From Candidatus Heimdallarchaeota archaeon (GTDB taxonomy: Archaea > Asgardarchaeota > Heimdallarchaeia > Heimdallarchaeales > JAJRWK01): a stretch of DNA of 34,389 bases. How positions within the stretch are numbered: position 1 is the stretch's first letter; every line of letters begins with the position of its first letter. The stretch lies in NCBI GenBank assembly GCA_027001645.1, contig JALTMP010000363.1:1-34389 (forward strand). The letters are read 5' to 3'. The position numbers were made by a program, and so were the translations under genes. Shown in pieces: positions 3,123-27,262 of this stretch. The notes below the pieces were generated by a model, which searched no databases, was not told the origin of the DNA, and saw nothing but the letters and a program-made list of their open reading frames with translations.

Positions 3123-3710
3123 TTGACCATGTCAAAGAGTCTAGACGATTTTTTTTCCGAGTCTGATGAGAAACAAGAACGTTCCAAAAAAAAGGAGAAC
3201 GAAAGCAACTCTCAGGAAGCATTAAGCGGATCTGCTGGATTGTCTGATTCTGATGGTCCTTCTGAAAAAGCTTCGTCTCTTAAAATGGCTACAAACAAGG
3301 CTCTAGCTGAAGCAGAGAACGATTACGACAAACAACCTCCGGTGGAAAAATCTGCCTCCAACCAAAGTCCGGAAGGAGAGCCTATCTCAGATTCTGCGGG
3401 TACAGGCAAGGAAAAAGATAAGTCAGAACAAACTGTAGCTTTCATCTCTTCTAATTCTGGAACTCGGCTTTCTCTCAGTTCTATTATCTTCAGACGCCCC
3501 GTCCAACCTAGCCGATTGAGACCAATTAACCCCCTGGAACTAATTGAAACGATTAGAAAAATCCCCGGCTATAGCAATCGATTAGTCTATGTTAAGGAAC
3601 ATGTTCTTCCAAAGAATCCCAACATTTCAAAGGAAGAGCTCTCCATTCTCCTAGCTATTACTGTTGGTGAGGCCGCTGTGTTATTATTCGATGCTAAAAG
3701 GACGTCTTGA
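3123..3710 (+). CDS. Uncharacterized protein: disordered acidic/Ser-rich N-terminal half, compact C-terminal domain
   Basis: 195 aa; starts MTMSKSLDDFFSESDEKQERSKKKE; C-terminal NPLELIETIRKIPGYSNRLVYVKEHVLPKNP...LSILLAITVGEAAVLLFDA looks folded. Confidence 0.65.
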   Translation: MTMSKSLDDFFSESDEKQERSKKKENESNSQEALSGSAGLSDSDGPSEKASSLKMATNKALAEAENDYDKQPPVEKSASNQSPEGEPISDSAGTGKEKDKSEQTVAFISSNSGTRLSLSSIIFRRPVQPSRLRPINPLELIETIRKIPGYSNRLVYVKEHVLPKNPNISKEELSILLAITVGEAAVLLFDAKRTS

Positions 3711-4341: not shown

Positions 4342-4908
4342 GTGCAAGGAAGTAGCTATTTTCTAAAAATTGTTCTCATGGGTGAAGGTGCCGTTGGGAA
4401 AACCTCTCTCCGCAACCGTTACATGGGAAAAGGTTTCAAAACTCAGCATCTCATGACTATAGGTGCTGATTTTTCGACCCATCGACAGGTTATTGACGGG
4501 AATGCTGTCACATGGCAAATCTGGGATTTGGCTGGTCAGCAAAGCTTCCAAAGCGTGAGACAAAGATTCTTTAAGGGTGCAATGGGCGGTCTGCTGGTTT
4601 TCGATGTTACTCGGCCGGAAACTTTCATGGCATTGCCCCAATGGATTGAGGAATTGTGGCGAAACAGTGGTAGAGGAGTCGTCCCAATGGTTCTGCTTGG
4701 CAATAAGGCTGACCTTAAACGCGCTGTATCCAAGAAACAAGCCGAAGAATATGCTAAACTGCTCAGTCGAACGGTTAAACAGTATGGATTTACCATGCAA
4801 TACCTCGATACTTCTGCCAAAACAGGGCTTAATGTGAAAGAAGCTTTTGAACTTCTAGGACGACAAATAATTCACGCAATTCAGTCAGGAAAACTAAATC
4901 TCGCTTAA
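4342..4908 (+). CDS. Rab/Ras-type small GTPase
   Basis: GTG start; P-loop GEGAVGKTS, switch I TIGADF, WDLAGQQ, NKADL, TSAK; about 20 kDa single G domain. Confidence 0.95.
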   Translation: MQGSSYFLKIVLMGEGAVGKTSLRNRYMGKGFKTQHLMTIGADFSTHRQVIDGNAVTWQIWDLAGQQSFQSVRQRFFKGAMGGLLVFDVTRPETFMALPQWIEELWRNSGRGVVPMVLLGNKADLKRAVSKKQAEEYAKLLSRTVKQYGFTMQYLDTSAKTGLNVKEAFELLGRQIIHAIQSGKLNLA

Positions 4909-8901: not shown

Positions 8902-9018
8902 TCTCTGGCTCTTACGTGTCGTTTTTTTCGCTTATTGTTTGCTGGGCACAGTTCACCATAATAGATAAAAAAGTCAAATCGGATGTTCCATTTGAAATAT
9001 TTGCCATTGGTGATATAC

Positions 9019-9378
9019 ATGTCATTCCAAGATGAAGCAGTAAGATTGTTCCAGGAAGGAAACATCGGAGTTGCAGTCCTAGTAGGAGAAGATAATCAGA
9101 TTTATTGGAAAATGGGTGAGTGGGATTTCGACCCAATTCAAGCAATTCAAGATTGGAAAGCGGGAACTTCCCCCGTATTTGTAGGCGGGCTCAAGTTTTC
9201 CGTTATTCGAAAAGAACCCGATCGGTTTGTTGCTACAAACTTGCAACAACAGGGGCATCTCATCATTGCTCAATGCCCATTCTGGCCAGGGTACTTAATT
9301 GCATGGGCTCCGTCAAGCGTTGGTCCTGATGTTGCCTATGCGGAAGTAGCAAAACTTGCCGCAATGGTTAAATCCTAA
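9019..9378 (+). CDS. Profilin homologue
   Basis: From ATG 9019: MSFQDEAVRLF...GVAVLVGEDNQIYWKMGEWDFDPIQAIQDW...SPVFVGGLKFSVIRKEPDRFVATN...GHLIIAQCPFWPGYLIAWA aligns by eye with plant-type profilin (MSWQxYVDxHL...AAIIGxDGxVWAQSxxFPxFKPEEIxxI...GGxKYMVIQGEPGxVIRGKK). ORF track start 8983 adds 12 aa. Confidence 0.85.
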   Translation: MSFQDEAVRLFQEGNIGVAVLVGEDNQIYWKMGEWDFDPIQAIQDWKAGTSPVFVGGLKFSVIRKEPDRFVATNLQQQGHLIIAQCPFWPGYLIAWAPSSVGPDVAYAEVAKLAAMVKS

Positions 9379-14775: not shown

Positions 14776-16830
14776 ATGGGAGCGACTGGATTAGAACTGG
14801 TTAATGAATTGAAAAGATATGTTCCAAAATCTACTGAGAATGCCCTAGTATGGCTTATTGGCAAACTAACCGTGGAGGGGAGCGTAGCAATTAAAGACGT
14901 TGCTTCCTATCTAGGGGTACCCATCGAAGAAGCTGAGATTTTTTTGGGAAAACTTCTCCAATACCAGGGCTTTCCAGCCAAATTCAGAGATGATCGCTTT
15001 GTCTTGACAAAATCAATTGCTTTTGCGACGTCCAATGCGGACAGTCTTAGCAAACAAGAAGAGGAATTTTTGGGATACCTTCGAGGAAGAGGTGCTTTTG
15101 TACCCAAAGAAATTGATTTTATCTTTGGTTGGAGCGAAAGAGAAGCTTGGCACAGATTTTACTCTTTGATCATAAGGGGCTATATTACTGCATCAGTAGT
15201 AATGGGTGTTGTTACTCCGAAAATCACCTTCTCTCCTGAACCCCTATCTCCAGAGGAAATTACTGATCAAGACGTCATTATTGTGGGAATGTTTCAATTA
15301 TTTCAAGAAGCAACAATTTCTCGAATTCAAGAACTAGTTCAATATCCTTATGAAACGATCATTAGAAGGTTATTTCTTCTTTCTTTTTACGAAGCAATTC
15401 AAGCAAAGTTTGTGTTTATTGAACGAATTATGAGATCTCCTTCTCTTGTTGTAAAACATGCAAAGTTTCTCATTTCATTTCCTCGGCGTTCTGTCACAAT
15501 CCTTCAAGAGAACGAGAAGCTAGTTATTGGCCTTGTTCTAATGATGCGAAAGGTTTCATACAAGCGGATTGCATTAATAATGGAAATTTCGGAAGAGGAA
15601 GTTTTACGAATTGCTGCTCAACTTACTGCCACAAAGGTTGTTCCCTTGGCCATGGATTCAGAAGGGAACATGTTCATGTCAATGCCTGTTGATTACCGCC
15701 CATATCGCTCCTTGGAACAAATTCAACGGCTTTCTCTATTCAACTATCATGTCTTGTTGGGACTGCTTGCCACTCATCGAACAATCAATCTAAAGGTTAT
15801 TGCTAAAAGAATGAATGAGCCCCCCTTCGAAGTCTTGCGCGGCATTATTGTCCTTGTTCTTGAAGGTTTTCTAGTCTGCCAAATGAACAAGAAATATGAT
15901 ATTACCCTAGAAGAAATCCGAACATATTCTGGAGTCGGAGAGAAAGCTGTTGAGAAATGGGAAGCTGTGGTTATCGGTGCCCTTCAACTGCATGGGTTTG
16001 TAGATATTTTGGAGATTTCCAAACTTTTGAAGGTTAGCAAACGTGTTGCATTAGAACTGGCCTATACCGTCGTTGCGCGTGGCTTAGTTAAGGCAAGGGT
16101 CAAATTAGATCGTGTTCTGCGAGCTCTCGAACCCGTGCATATTCCCCCCACTATCCACCCCTCTGAATTAGAACTTAGAGAGAGGCAGATCCTCGGATAT
16201 CTGTTTCTCAAGCGAGAAACGGATTGGAAAGAATTAAGGAAAGGATGGAGGCTAAATGCGCTTGAGGCTCGACAAATCATCTACATGTTATCGGGGTATG
16301 GTCTCGTAACTATCATCCTAAAAGGCAAGAAGCTTCATGTAATTGAGAAAGCGGATATTAAGCCTAATCGGTCCGTAGAAGAACTTGGCAAAAATGCCGA
16401 AAAAATCTACAACTCCCTAGACCGCCTTCCTGACGCCATCACCATTCGTGAACTTGTCAATGTTTCCCGTCTGAAACGTCATGAGGTGTTATACGCGTTA
16501 TATGAATTGGCCGCAGAGGGATTTGTCGTAGGTGAACTCGGCGTTGAACTATTCAAGAAATCCGCAATAAAGCGCGCGCCCCGGATTCCGCGATGTCTTT
16601 CGTGTAAGGAGGAATTGCCAGAACCTAACTCTGAGTGTCCTTCTTGTGGTGCTCCTCCGCCCACTTGTAGCGTCTGCAGGGGAGGGATCGATTCGCGAGA
16701 TCCCATTGCAAGATGTCCTTCTTGCAAATACGTTGCCCACGATTCCCACCTCAAAGAATGGCTCAAAATAAAAGGCGAATGCCCGGTTTGCAGGACCAAA
16801 CTGGCATGGGAAGAAGTTCTTCTGGAATAG
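14776..16830 (+). CDS. Winged-helix-like repeat protein with C-terminal zinc ribbon and RING-like finger
   Basis: 684 aa; repeated helix-turn-helix-like units (SVAIKDVASYLGVPIEEAEIFLGKLL; VDILEISKLLKVSKRVALELAYTVVARGLV; ITIRELVNVSRLKRHEVLYALYELAAEGFV); C-terminus CLSC-x11-CPSC then CSVC-x10-CPSC-x4-H-x2-H-LKEWL-x5-CPVC. Confidence 0.8.
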   Translation: MGATGLELVNELKRYVPKSTENALVWLIGKLTVEGSVAIKDVASYLGVPIEEAEIFLGKLLQYQGFPAKFRDDRFVLTKSIAFATSNADSLSKQEEEFLGYLRGRGAFVPKEIDFIFGWSEREAWHRFYSLIIRGYITASVVMGVVTPKITFSPEPLSPEEITDQDVIIVGMFQLFQEATISRIQELVQYPYETIIRRLFLLSFYEAIQAKFVFIERIMRSPSLVVKHAKFLISFPRRSVTILQENEKLVIGLVLMMRKVSYKRIALIMEISEEEVLRIAAQLTATKVVPLAMDSEGNMFMSMPVDYRPYRSLEQIQRLSLFNYHVLLGLLATHRTINLKVIAKRMNEPPFEVLRGIIVLVLEGFLVCQMNKKYDITLEEIRTYSGVGEKAVEKWEAVVIGALQLHGFVDILEISKLLKVSKRVALELAYTVVARGLVKARVKLDRVLRALEPVHIPPTIHPSELELRERQILGYLFLKRETDWKELRKGWRLNALEARQIIYMLSGYGLVTIILKGKKLHVIEKADIKPNRSVEELGKNAEKIYNSLDRLPDAITIRELVNVSRLKRHEVLYALYELAAEGFVVGELGVELFKKSAIKRAPRIPRCLSCKEELPEPNSECPSCGAPPPTCSVCRGGIDSRDPIARCPSCKYVAHDSHLKEWLKIKGECPVCRTKLAWEEVLLE

Positions 16831-16878: not shown

Positions 16879-19800
16879 CTAGGAGAATAATTCTCTTTGA
16901 AAGACATCTAATTGATATTTTGCTTTGCTCGCCGCCATGTATAATCTGGTAACGACGAGCTTCCAAATGTTGATTCTTTTTTCTCTAGCTAAAATATTCT
17001 GCTCTATTCTGATGGACGATGCAATCCCTAAGACCAGAATGTGTGTCAGCAAATAATCCCACACCTCTTTGCTAAACCAAAGCCTGTCGTTGAAGCGATT
17101 AACTCCAAGCAACATCTGAACCTCAGGATAATCAAATATTCCAAGTACCTCACTAATGATTTCATCTTGATCGTATTCTTCAACAAAGGCAGGAGTAAGT
17201 AGGAGTAAAACTTTGACAATTGAAAGCGATGTCTCTCTTTCGTCTTTAGGTAGCCTCACCGATTGCCACGCCTCTCTCAGAATGTCTCGCAAAAGCCATT
17301 CTTCATACCAGCTAATATTCACAATTGCCGCATCTTTCCATTGCTCTTCTTTCATTTTACCAATAGCGTGCAACATTGCCCAGCTGAACAAGTTGAAGCC
17401 GACTTGTTTTCTCCGCTTAGTTAATAATTGCTTACTTAGCTCCTCTAATTTCTCCGTTAAGCTGATTTCTCTTCTCTTTAGGGCTGTGAATGCAGAAAAA
17501 ATCTGAATTAAGGCATCTCTTATTCTCCTTGTGATCTGTTTCCTGTTCTTACTACTTTGTTCTTGTTTTTGGATTGTAATCATCACTCGTTCTTGTCCCT
17601 TCTCTACAGCATAAAAAACACTTTCTGGCACGTTTGCCATTCTCTCTTTCTCAATAATGTCTAGAAGCATTTCGAAAATAGATGGGCTCAAAGCTTCAAC
17701 AAATGCCTGATGTAAGGGAGCTAGAATGACTTCTTGTAACGCCCTTGCAATACTTGGAACGCCTCTCTTTCCCAAATAATCATACAATTGCTGGTAGTGT
17801 CTCCATTTGTTATCTTTAACTTGTCTAAACTCCCAGAAAACGTAGAATTGGTACGCTCTTAGTTCTAAGAATAGTCCTTGTCTTCTTAATTCTGTGTTCT
17901 TGCGAATGTATTCTAAGCCTGTAACATGATCGACAAACAAGACAAAATAACCCTCGGCAAGTTTCAGATCTAATGCCTCTGCAACATCTCGACTTATTAA
18001 CGGTGCATTTTCAGAATCAGTATTACGAATGGGAACTCCTTGTTGTATCTTTCCACTAGTTTCTTTGTAGGCATTATTATACACCACGAGGACCGCCTCT
18101 TCCCCGCATCTATTGCTATAAGCAATGACATCATGGTCTATTTCTCCGTTTTCTTTCACAAAGTCGTAGAAATTGAAATGGTCTACTTCTGAGAAGAGGA
18201 AACGCTTTTTCAAAAGCGGAAAGATTAATTCTTCGTGCCTCTTAATAAACTCTCTATCCTCATGTTCCTCCATTCGGGGTTTTCTAAACTCCATTCCGTA
18301 TTTCTCACGAAAGCCCTCTATCTGTCCGTGCCCAATCATTGGGAGTCCAGGGAGGGTCGCCAATAAAGTGAAAACACCAAAGTACTTGTCTCCCTTCCCA
18401 AACTGGACAACGGCTGTTTCTTCATCGGGATTATTCATAAAATTAACAAAGCGTTTGAGGATTCTTGGATCAAATTTTAGTGTGTTCTTAATCAGGGTTT
18501 TGTATTCAGCATTTTCCTCGGCTTTCAGCATGTTCATGAATGCGCTATTATACACTCTATGCATTCCCAGTACCCGCACGAAATATCCTTCTAGTAACCA
18601 AAAGGCCTCAGCAAGCAACAACGTGTCGGGGGCTTCTTCGACGACTCTATCAACAACTTCTCGCCAGAATTCTTTTGGCATGTGTCTATCAAACTCTTCT
18701 TTTGTCATGGCAAATTCCGCTCTTGAAGGAATATCTCCCCCTGATCCAGGAATTGGGAACCACAATCTCTGAAAATGCTTTTTTGTCAAAGTCATTGCAG
18801 CATCGAATCGGATGATTGGGAAGAGTTTCGCGATTTGTATGATCGTCTCAATGACTGCTTGTCGAACTTCTTCTAGCAAATAATTGAGTTGGGCAGTGTC
18901 ATTCCATGGCATCTGGGTTCCATCATTTCCATGATAAATGAAATTCTCCTGGCCCGTCTCCATGTCAACTCTTTTGAAAACTACAGCAGCATCTGTTTTA
19001 TCATAATAATGGTCTTCAAGGTAAATTGCAACTCTAGGATCGCTACTAAGGTTAGGCCCATTAAATGTGTAGGAGGGAAATGGCGGTCGTTCCACTTGAA
19101 TATACCACCCTGGATGTTCAATGATCCATTTTGCATCAATTCCAGTATGATTGGGCACCATATCTCCTGCTAGCCTAATTCCTCTCTGCTCTGCCCTTGC
19201 TTTTAGATTCTGAAACGCTTCAAAGCCCCCCAAATCTTGCGAAATAACGTATTCGTATATTGAATAAGCAGAGGATTCTGCATCATGCATTCCTGTTAGG
19301 TGCTTAATTCTTTTCGAGGCTGGACTTCTTTCCCATACTCCAATCAGCCATAAGGCGTTTATTCCACGTTTTCGCAAAAGGTCGAGCTCTTCATCCGGGA
19401 TTTGATCCAATCTTCTGATTTCTCTGCCATATTTTTTGCTCAGCTGGTATAACCAAACATAGGTAATCTTGGCAATCAGTACAACGTTTGGCATCCAATC
19501 TGTATCTCTGCTGTACGCCTCCTCAACGATCCCCTCATAATCATATGCTTTGACTTTGCCCTTTCCCGCTCCCCTAAGCTTCTGCTCTTCTCTGGCTATG
19601 TCTAATGCCTTCAGGATTTTGAGCAAAATTGGATTCACAATGTCTGCCCAGTTTTCAGCAATAAACTCGATTTGACCAATTATCGATTGGGGGTTAACCC
19701 TAACGGGTTCTTTCAGTAATTCAACGAGAGTTTTATTTTTCTCAGCGAACTTTGGCTGTTTTTCAAAGAGCTCCTCCATTTTCTGCATTAGCTGGATGTA

Positions 19801-20430
19801 TTTAGTAGTGACTTCAAGCTCTGAATCATCAAAAAGGTCTTTGAGTTTATCCAACGCCGGATTATTATTCTCTAGCCAAAGCAGAAGCATTTCTTCTAGC
19901 ACAATTTCCTTCCCTGATCTTCCATCGATTTCTTCGTTGAGATATTCTTCAATACTTTTTTCTCCTTTTAATATCGGCTGAGGGGGAAAATTCCTCAAGA
20001 AGGCACGAATGACGGCATTGAAATCTTCCTCATTGAGGAAATTCTCCAAATTCTTGCTCACTTCGTTTATCGCGTTTGAATTTATTTCCCTCAAATACTT
20101 CTCGATAATAAAGTGCCCTATTTCGTGAAGCAATCCCGTGGCGAAGAATTCGCTGATTTTTACGGCCAATTCCGGAAATTCTCTAACATTGCGCTTTTTG
20201 TTTATTGCAGACACTGCCTTATGTGTGGTGAATATGGTGTTAAAGACAAGCTCACCTTGACTGCTAAATAGTTCCTCTTCAATTCCATAAAGTATTCGAG
20301 CTTTTTTTGAGATTAACATTTCTTTTCGAGAATTCTTCCTTGCATTTTTAGGAGGTGCACTGCCTTTGCCTTCTTGTTCTCTTTGATCCCGTTTTTTCAT
20401 TTCTCTTTGCCACATCCGGTCAAAGCACAA
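16879..20430 (-). CDS. GH13 alpha-amylase-family protein with long N-terminal helical/HExxH region and C-terminal extension
   Basis: 1183 aa; GH13 elements RGINALWLIGVWE, GIRLAGDMVPNHTG, IIRFDAAMTL, LLLAEAFW, MIGHGQI; N-terminal LLHEIGHFIIEKYL. TTG start in track; ATG 20415 or 20400 also plausible. Confidence 0.85.
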   Translation of the reverse strand: MCFDRMWQREMKKRDQREQEGKGSAPPKNARKNSRKEMLISKKARILYGIEEELFSSQGELVFNTIFTTHKAVSAINKKRNVREFPELAVKISEFFATGLLHEIGHFIIEKYLREINSNAINEVSKNLENFLNEEDFNAVIRAFLRNFPPQPILKGEKSIEEYLNEEIDGRSGKEIVLEEMLLLWLENNNPALDKLKDLFDDSELEVTTKYIQLMQKMEELFEKQPKFAEKNKTLVELLKEPVRVNPQSIIGQIEFIAENWADIVNPILLKILKALDIAREEQKLRGAGKGKVKAYDYEGIVEEAYSRDTDWMPNVVLIAKITYVWLYQLSKKYGREIRRLDQIPDEELDLLRKRGINALWLIGVWERSPASKRIKHLTGMHDAESSAYSIYEYVISQDLGGFEAFQNLKARAEQRGIRLAGDMVPNHTGIDAKWIIEHPGWYIQVERPPFPSYTFNGPNLSSDPRVAIYLEDHYYDKTDAAVVFKRVDMETGQENFIYHGNDGTQMPWNDTAQLNYLLEEVRQAVIETIIQIAKLFPIIRFDAAMTLTKKHFQRLWFPIPGSGGDIPSRAEFAMTKEEFDRHMPKEFWREVVDRVVEEAPDTLLLAEAFWLLEGYFVRVLGMHRVYNSAFMNMLKAEENAEYKTLIKNTLKFDPRILKRFVNFMNNPDEETAVVQFGKGDKYFGVFTLLATLPGLPMIGHGQIEGFREKYGMEFRKPRMEEHEDREFIKRHEELIFPLLKKRFLFSEVDHFNFYDFVKENGEIDHDVIAYSNRCGEEAVLVVYNNAYKETSGKIQQGVPIRNTDSENAPLISRDVAEALDLKLAEGYFVLFVDHVTGLEYIRKNTELRRQGLFLELRAYQFYVFWEFRQVKDNKWRHYQQLYDYLGKRGVPSIARALQEVILAPLHQAFVEALSPSIFEMLLDIIEKERMANVPESVFYAVEKGQERVMITIQKQEQSSKNRKQITRRIRDALIQIFSAFTALKRREISLTEKLEELSKQLLTKRRKQVGFNLFSWAMLHAIGKMKEEQWKDAAIVNISWYEEWLLRDILREAWQSVRLPKDERETSLSIVKVLLLLTPAFVEEYDQDEIISEVLGIFDYPEVQMLLGVNRFNDRLWFSKEVWDYLLTHILVLGIASSIRIEQNILAREKRINIWKLVVTRLYMAASKAKYQLDVFQRELFS

Positions 20431-24897: not shown

Positions 24898-25449
24898 ATG
24901 CCACTCTTCAAGCGTAAGAAAGAATCAGCATTTGCAGAATCTTCTTCTGTAATTAAAGATCTAAGAAAGATCATCCCTAACTACCGAGGATACGAAAATG
25001 TTGAGGACCGATTAGAAACGGATAAACTATTTCGCTCACATATTGTCGCTAAGCTCCGAAACATTTCCAATATTTTTGCGGAGATTGTTGGAAAGCTTAT
25101 AGAGATGCGTATGCTTAATGCATGGGGGGTTTGCGATCGTGCACTTCGAGAGCTGAAAGAGATAGAAGCAAAGGTACGGGAACCTGACTACAAGCACACG
25201 ACATTTTTTGACAATCCGACCCTCGAAGGGCTAGATGTTTCTGTTCTCTACCTCTTGGAATCAGAAGCTTTCGCTCTCCTGGAGGACATGAAAGTATTGA
25301 CCGAAGACATCCTAGGACGATTAAGAGAAGCTAATTTCGAAAATATCGATCAACTCGTTGCCAGATTAGTTCAATTGGCAAATTCCCTTGTTCAATTACT
25401 CAGTGATCGAATCGAGCTCATAGCTTCCTTCGAAATAATTGGCTTCTGA
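24898..25449 (+). CDS. Uncharacterized helical protein, co-oriented just after DNA ligase
   Basis: 183-aa ORF beginning 7 nt after the lig stop; predicted mostly alpha-helical by eye. Confidence 0.75.
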   Translation: MPLFKRKKESAFAESSSVIKDLRKIIPNYRGYENVEDRLETDKLFRSHIVAKLRNISNIFAEIVGKLIEMRMLNAWGVCDRALRELKEIEAKVREPDYKHTTFFDNPTLEGLDVSVLYLLESEAFALLEDMKVLTEDILGRLREANFENIDQLVARLVQLANSLVQLLSDRIELIASFEIIGF

Positions 25450-26488: not shown

Positions 26489-27262
26489 ATGCATTACTGG
26501 AGGGGACATTCAGTCGAACAGAAGCTTTTTGCGATTGCAGATGCTTTTCTGCCTCCGCAAAACACAGAAGCACAAGTAAAGACGCTCCTGTCTGTTATCT
26601 ATGGGAAACAAGAGGAGTATGCTAATCATAGTTTTCTTGATGCATGGGCTCTGAATGAAAATTATATTCGTGAATTCACAACTAAGGGGCTGTTGGCTAG
26701 TGGGTGGTATCCCTATGGTCAAAACATAGGCACACTGATTGGAAACAACCTTCCTAACAACATTCAAGATGTTGACATACGAAGTGTAAACCCCGAATTC
26801 ATGGGGGATCTGCGTTATGATGTTGTTTTCTTCCCTCACAATTCGTTGTCTCTGTTTGGATCCCCCCAACTAATTAAATCTGCTCTACTCCATGCAAAGC
26901 AACTTCTCAAAGACAATGGTTCTATCGTTGTGCACGCCGTTAATTACAAAGTGCGAAAAGCCCTAGGCCGTTACTACCCGCTGAGAGAAACTCAAGTCGC
27001 CGATCAAAACATCATCGTCCAACGATTCTTGGACTTTTCTCCACAAATCTCTCTAAATGTCAACGTCATTTCAAAAATTGAAGAGAAATGGAAATATCTA
27101 GATAAGATGCAACTTACAATTCATCCTCTGAACCCTAAGAATCTGCATAACCTTGCAAACTCTGTTGGTTTACGGGTTCATGACATATTTGAAGCATACA
27201 CGTCAAAGAAATTCGACGAGAAAACATCAAAATCAATGCTTGCGTTGCTCCGTCGGCAATAA
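26489..27262 (+). CDS. Putative class I SAM-methyltransferase-like protein (uncertain)
   Basis: 257 aa; LRYDVVFFPHNSLSLFGSPQLIKSALLHAKQLLKDNGSIVVHAVN resembles post-motif II/III of Rossmann methyltransferases; a clean GxGxG motif I is missing. Confidence 0.45.
   Translation: MHYWRGHSVEQKLFAIADAFLPPQNTEAQVKTLLSVIYGKQEEYANHSFLDAWALNENYIREFTTKGLLASGWYPYGQNIGTLIGNNLPNNIQDVDIRSVNPEFMGDLRYDVVFFPHNSLSLFGSPQLIKSALLHAKQLLKDNGSIVVHAVNYKVRKALGRYYPLRETQVADQNIIVQRFLDFSPQISLNVNVISKIEEKWKYLDKMQLTIHPLNPKNLHNLANSVGLRVHDIFEAYTSKKFDEKTSKSMLALLRRQ

Follow-up and report, generated by a model that had tools for sequence, protein, structure and literature searches.

A candidate scaffold-type RING E3 ligase with eight winged helices in Heimdallarchaeales

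Introduction

Nse1, which works inside the Smc5/6 complex, carries two winged helices followed by a variant RING-like domain. A RING E3 has been proven in the archaeon Caldiarchaeum subterraneum, where srfp, a small RING-finger protein encoded in an operon with the cascade, works with archaeal ubiquitin, E1 and E2 (PMC5654768). So far only such a small, operon-encoded RING E3 has been shown to work in an archaeon. In Arkadia (RNF111), Trp972 contacts the E2 and Arg983 is the linchpin, and a Lys at the linchpin impairs activity (PMC9954413). UFL1/DDRGK1 (UFBP1), the E3 of UFM1, contains tandem PCI-like winged helices. Eukaryotic UFL1 has neither a RING nor another known E3 domain (PMC9627666). 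UFL1 and DDRGK1 are stated to have arisen in Asgard archaea, and UFM1 and UFC1 to be confined to eukaryotes (PMC10183829). IFT-A WDR19 and subunits of GATOR2/SEA combine beta-propellers and an alpha-solenoid with a C-terminal zinc ribbon and RING; the ribbon-RING tandems of SEA/GATOR2 act as structural joints, and no ubiquitin-related function has been established for them (PMC9646525, PMC12477443).

Here we describe a 684-aa protein encoded in a window of 34,389 nucleotides, the whole stretch of Candidatus Heimdallarchaeota DNA that was analysed. The organism belongs to Heimdallarchaeales, the order of Candidatus Heimdallarchaeum endolithica, within the group of archaea nearest to eukaryotes. 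Like srfp it is an archaeal RING protein, but it is large, lies outside a cascade operon and brings its own scaffold. It shares tandem winged helices with UFL1/DDRGK1, and a C-terminal ribbon followed by a RING with WDR19 and GATOR2/SEA, whereas eight winged helices stand in place of their propellers and solenoid. Winged helices and a RING-like end are also common to Nse1, which is absent from the listed matches of the window protein. We read the protein, with somewhat better than even confidence, as a scaffold-type RING E3, whose RING would engage the ubiquitin-charged E2 (E2~Ub) and whose PCI-like winged-helix array would hold the substrate or partner proteins.

The reading frame and its zinc fingers

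The preliminary description of this locus had placed here a 684-aa reading frame with about 600 aa of repeated winged-helix-like units in front of cysteine-rich fingers. Coordinates and strand hold (Table 1), the start codon is ATG, and the units proved to be eight mutually homologous winged helices by AlphaFold2 (AF2) modelling and hhalign. In the AF2 model the eight units span residues 21-77, 93-150, 164-231, 245-301, 324-381, 394-450, 467-525 and 539-598. The finger pattern given there was also right, except that two loops described as x11 and x10 are in fact x10 and x12. The ribbon reads C607-x2-C610-x10-C621-x2-C624 and the RING C631-x2-C634-x12-C647-x2-C650-x4-H655-x2-H658-x10-C669-x2-C672. 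Every one of the 10 Cys and two His in the last 84 aa is a ligand, and the other 600 aa contain a single Cys. Pfam zf-RING_2 matches residues 630-673 (E 2.6e-6, 28.0 bits, cut-off 27.3). A loose RING pattern turned up 20 times when the last 84 aa were shuffled 20,000 times, and never in as many shuffles of the whole protein.

The 26 orthologs are 22-48% identical to the window protein. Most of them share only 22-27% of their residues with it, yet the 12 zinc ligands, W662 and P670 are invariant (26/26), and a RING is matched in each ortholog at E<=0.1. Position 633, the remaining predicted E2 contact, is V or I in all 26. The linchpin position 673 is always basic (K in 22, R in 4); the window protein has R673.

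Table 1. Coordinates of the coding sequence and of the predicted domains in the window
Feature	Position	Strand	Basis
Whole CDS, protein of winged-helix array, zinc ribbon and RING	14776..16830	+	ATG start, 684 aa
Winged helix 1, residues 21-79	14836..15012	+	AF2 secondary structure, hhalign to other repeats
Winged helix 2, residues 91-152	15046..15231	+	AF2, hhalign
Winged helix 3, residues 162-233	15259..15474	+	AF2, hhalign
Winged helix 4, residues 243-303, weak Pfam PCI match in window protein	15502..15684	+	AF2, hhalign
Winged helix 5, residues 322-383, among most conserved repeats	15739..15924	+	AF2, hhalign, conservation
Winged helix 6, residues 392-452, best conserved of the repeats	15949..16131	+	AF2, hhalign, conservation
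Winged helix 7, residues 465-527	16168..16356	+	AF2, hhalign
Winged helix 8, residues 537-600, where DDRGK1 aligns in profile search	16384..16575	+	AF2, hhalign
Cys4 zinc ribbon (C607, C610, C621, C624)	16588..16653	+	Invariant in 26 orthologs; co-aligned with RING to WDR19 and GATOR2 structures
RING finger (C631, C634, C647, C650, H655, H658, C669, C672)	16660..16803	+	Pfam zf-RING_2, alignment, Foldseek
Predicted E2-contact residues of the RING V633, W662, P670 and linchpin R673	within 16660..16803	+	Residue counts in orthologs

Structure of the ribbon-RING module

A full-length AF2 model was built with the 26 orthologs (mean pLDDT 89, pTM 0.73). In it eight winged helices follow one another and lead to the ribbon and finally the RING. 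A second model covers the ribbon-RING alone (24 sequences, pLDDT 88). The RING adopts the beta-beta-alpha fold, with strands at residues 644-646 and 653-655 and a helix at 656-666. Foldseek superimposes the C-terminal model on RNF165 from its complex with UbcH5b~Ub (1.0 Å over 46 columns, TMt 0.83), on Rad18 (1.2 Å over 55 columns) and on Prp19 (1.4 Å). The top matches of the module are the C-termini of IFT-A WDR19 and of SEA/GATOR2 subunits, in alignments long enough to span ribbon and RING together. Because of these alignments the modelled finger is assigned to the cross-brace-type RING/U-box fold and the upstream Cys4 ribbon to a separate, additional domain. Two independent rubredoxin-like ribbons, against which the RING assignment was to be checked, are ruled out by the zf-RING_2 match and by the Foldseek and profile matches to RINGs.

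In a PDB profile search with the ribbon-RING the best matches are the active RING E3s Arkadia/RNF165 (ARK2C) with E 2.7e-9; WDR19 follows the query from position 4 to 83 of 85 (E 2.3e-6). The HxxH and CPxC variant of the finger resembles, by sequence, catalytic RING-H2 E3s of this kind, since it retains all E2-contact residues. The RING fold, a V/I after C1, the helix Trp, the Pro of the last Cys pair and a linchpin of basic character are common to both sides. The window protein differs in having C-x2-C in the middle and H-x2-H, where Arkadia/RNF165 have C-x1-H and H-x2-C, and in the fusion of its RING to eight winged helices and a zinc ribbon.

Since the SEA/GATOR2 tandem serves as a structural joint, the reading that competes most with a ligase is a role as scaffold only. 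Like their counterparts in GATOR2/SEA, ribbon and RING would then form a dimerisation joint, and the rod of winged helices would assemble a complex, ESCRT-like or transport-related, with no ligase activity. The co-alignment of both fingers with WDR19 and SEA/GATOR2 is in line with this, as are the habit of PCI-like winged helices to build complexes and the structural part that the SEA RINGs play (PMC9646525). Nevertheless, E2-contact and linchpin-type residues, which a pure joint would not need, are kept throughout the orthologs, the RING is closer in sequence to active RING-H2 E3s than to GATOR2, and neither a propeller nor a solenoid is present. We therefore regard a purely structural role as unlikely, though worth keeping in view, and prefer a scaffold-type RING E3.

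The winged-helix array

Pairwise comparison of the eight repeats by hhalign gave probabilities of 38-98%, mostly >90% (28 pairs). Pfam PCI is the commonest winged-helix match of the family, which at E<=0.1 is present in 21 of the 26 members, with a best E of 8.9e-10. The best PDB match of the array in Foldseek is the UFM1 ligase UFL1/DDRGK1 (E 3.9e-6), and DDRGK1 is also its best profile match (E 0.0045). Because of the PCI matches and of this structural match, the units look PCI-like. The likeness to UFL1/DDRGK1 in particular may be generic similarity between winged-helix arrays, because TM-scores over the full length stay low, at about 0.1 of the query. Foldseek also returned TFIIIC tauB, SelB and RPC62 for the array, and winged-helix matches of the TrmB/IclR type were found in single family members.

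The array has a pI of about 9.3, and its net charge ranges from +4 to +33 in the orthologs, so that it could possibly bind nucleic acid. It would then contact DNA or structured RNA like TFIIIC tauB, RPC62 and SelB, and the RING would modify or hold proteins there, a reading with which the matches just named agree. However, the recognition helices are near neutral or acidic on average, with mean net charges from -2.0 to +1.7, and scarcely better conserved than the rest of the repeats, and PCI outnumbers the other winged-helix matches. Despite the basic array overall, the near-neutral recognition helices therefore favour contacts to protein rather than DNA, and we consider a nucleic-acid-associated role quite improbable.

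Family and distribution

A search with the winged-helix array alone recovered the family in 35 of the 37 genomes of Heimdallarchaeales, with essentially one copy each. Distant relatives occur in two other Asgard lineages: genome G231 encodes one of 732 aa with the full array (E 6.5e-63) and genome G183 one of 666 aa, and G170 gave a weak match. In the tree the window protein pairs with its congener from G032, and the G231 protein pairs with that of G183; the placement of the latter two is uncertain because the branches are long. A pattern scan of 85,462 GTDB species yielded 27 loci, whose record titles read Heimdallarchaeota, Asgard group archaeon or archaeon; as the scan used one short peptide pattern, distant relatives elsewhere could be missed. 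The combination is not general across Asgard archaea: among RING proteins sampled outside the order, only those of L097 and L098 matched the winged-helix repeats. The preliminary description had named no family for such a protein, and we found no description of the architecture in the open-access literature.

Several genomes of the order also encode paralogues of 515-698 aa with some winged-helix repeats and a ribbon-RING (L084 2713-6999 in G000:C145, L101, L102, L100). The gene next to them encodes a membrane-type protein that has a zinc ribbon at its N-terminus.

Ubiquitin machinery and gene neighbourhood

The genome of the window encodes a ubiquitin ending in GG-YED (on G000:C185) and an E2 (G000:C382, 8071-8439) in which an HPN motif precedes the active-site Cys. 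It also has several ThiF-type proteins, JAB proteins and nine RING matches. Within Heimdallarchaeales an E2 was found in 37/37 genomes and a detectable ubiquitin in 34/37, so the family does not reside mostly in genomes without a ubiquitin-like system. Across 232 Asgard genomes, 165 have both RING and E2, 1 only the RING, 10 only the E2 and 56 neither, where the RING count means matches to the window protein, mostly via its RING, and unlisted genomes were assigned from genome numbering. The corresponding Fisher p of 4e-42 ignores phylogeny and shared ancestry and is descriptive only. In 47 genomes of one Asgard family (G184-G230) searches for RING, E2 and ubiquitin gave no match.

An E1-like/JAB pair on contig C225 was considered as ubiquitin machinery and rejected. 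The locus (L081 3411-6390, G000:C225) encodes a MoaD-ThiF-rhodanese fusion, a JAB protein and a cysteine-synthase-like protein, and judging from these sequences probably serves sulfur-carrier chemistry rather than ubiquitylation.

The RING gene is not linked to genes of the ubiquitin/E1/E2 cascade in its neighbourhood, a point against the ligase reading. In Heimdallarchaeaceae it is usually followed by a MazG-like gene, at a distance of <20 bases in most loci, and then by an ABC-ATPase gene, a linkage confined to this family; small membrane-protein genes follow it there as well. In the window, these MazG-like, ABC-ATPase and small membrane-protein genes lie at 1337-2981, about 12 kb upstream of the RING gene. 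A Ras-family small GTPase is encoded at 4342-4908, and a similar-looking GTPase adjoins a different RING protein in another genome (L103 2-547, G040). The reading frame at 16879-20430 encodes a 1183-aa protein whose sole assigned domain is a central alpha-amylase (residues 347-709). For five window ORFs of 131-257 aa (26489-27262, 24898-25449, 217-825, 3123-3710 and 8983-9378) there was no Pfam match at E<=0.001.

Proposed function

Features of a RING-type E3 found here are the eight ligands in RING order, the beta-beta-alpha fold, the E2-contact and linchpin residues, and a genome that also encodes ubiquitin and an E2 that looks active. The suggestion made beforehand for such a fusion in an Asgard-type genome, an E3-like or scaffold protein, gains support from the RING fold and the ubiquitin context. 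From architecture, fold, conservation and genome context we infer E2 binding, ligase activity and recruitment of substrates by the winged helices.

Because of the E2-contact residues, the basic linchpin and the best PDB profile matches to Arkadia/RNF165, the RING is predicted to recruit E2~Ub. V633, W662 and P670 would dock the charged E2, and R673, replaced by K in most orthologs, would favour the closed E2~Ub state. By analogy with Arkadia, the Lys of 22/26 orthologs could mean attenuated activity. The zinc ribbon may lie packed against the RING, an arrangement known from the tandem modules of IFT-A and GATOR2. With its eight PCI-like winged helices the rod would bind a substrate or a partner complex and place the substrate at the E2 active site, and ubiquitin would be transferred without a covalent E3-ubiquitin intermediate. 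The protein is thus probably an E3 ubiquitin ligase of large size and ancient origin, in which an unusual arm holds the substrate.

If this is true, substrate-selective, multidomain ubiquitin ligases predate eukaryotes, given an order-wide RING protein of about 690 residues with a built-in winged-helix scaffold. The window protein offers a concrete, expressible candidate, together with the E2 and ubiquitin of its own genome. It also bears on the origin of the UFL1-type winged-helix ligases and of the ribbon-RING tandems in eukaryotic coat complexes.

Relation to UFL1 and a UFM1-like cassette in Asgard archaea

Neither Pfam UFL1 (PF09743) nor DDRGK (PF09756) matches the window protein or any protein of its own genome. 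Three orthologs reach DDRGK at E<=0.1, the best with 25.0 bits, below the cut-off of 27.8. UFM1 was found in 0/37 genomes of the order; a UFC1-like E2 is present in four other genomes of the order and was not found in that of the window. An archaeal member of the UFL1/DDRGK1 lineage acting with a UFM1-like modifier, to which the array matches, the Pfam UFL1 score of an Asgard relative (see below) and the UFM1-, UFC1- and UBA5-like genes of some Asgard genomes might point, is very hard to credit: Pfam cut-offs and the missing UFM1 and UFC1 rule out membership, UFL1 lacks a RING, and the TM-scores are low.

The relative in question (L098 1776-3773, G183) combines a winged-helix array, a coiled-coil-like part, a zinc ribbon and a RING and scores 25.5 with Pfam UFL1 (cut-off 23.2); this signal may be generic, because the protein also matches the winged-helix models RPC82 and TFIIE. 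A shared origin of the window protein family and UFL1 is possible. It would be a bold conjecture, and an improbable one, that Asgard proteins of this type preserve an intermediate, a scaffold E3 with PCI-like array and RING serving one ubiquitin E2, of which eukaryotes retained two separate parts: in UFL1/DDRGK1 the array, with the RING lost, and in IFT-A and GATOR2 the ribbon-RING, with the array lost. In lineage family f19 (L104-L123), proteins of about 800 aa match both the DDRGK and the UFL1 model and carry N-terminal zinc fingers. A C-terminal RING had been expected in them and is absent from those examined, where the cysteine pairs are N-terminal.

In H. endolithica (L156 985-5784, G009) a conserved cassette with UBA5-, UFM1- and UFC1-like genes was observed, and further ones at L157-L159 and L160-L178; none was found in the genome of the window. 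The E1 of the H. endolithica cassette has UBA5 as its best PDB match (1.1e-60, against 1e-27 for MoeB), and its UFC1-like E2 lies above the Pfam cut-off. An 89-aa protein ends in INRGVVGL (INRGVVG in two relatives); its sole Pfam match is UFM1, at E 0.04-0.06 and below the cut-off, and a PDB profile search with it did not return UFM1. The name UFM1-like is therefore given on weak sequence scores and gene context. We found no description of such an Asgard cassette in the open-access literature, and it conflicts with the statement that UFM1 and UFC1 are eukaryote-only (PMC10183829). The same cassette encodes a JAB protein, an ESCRT-II protein of the EAP30/Vps36 family and an SPFH protein, and in Heimdallarchaeaceae cassettes the EAP30 and SPFH genes come after the UFC1-like E2. 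The UFM1-like modifiers of the cassette end in RG[VI]VG. A UFC1-like E2 was detected in 20 of the 232 Asgard genomes, and elsewhere in Asgard archaea UFM1-like and UFC1-like parts adjoin each other or share one reading frame.
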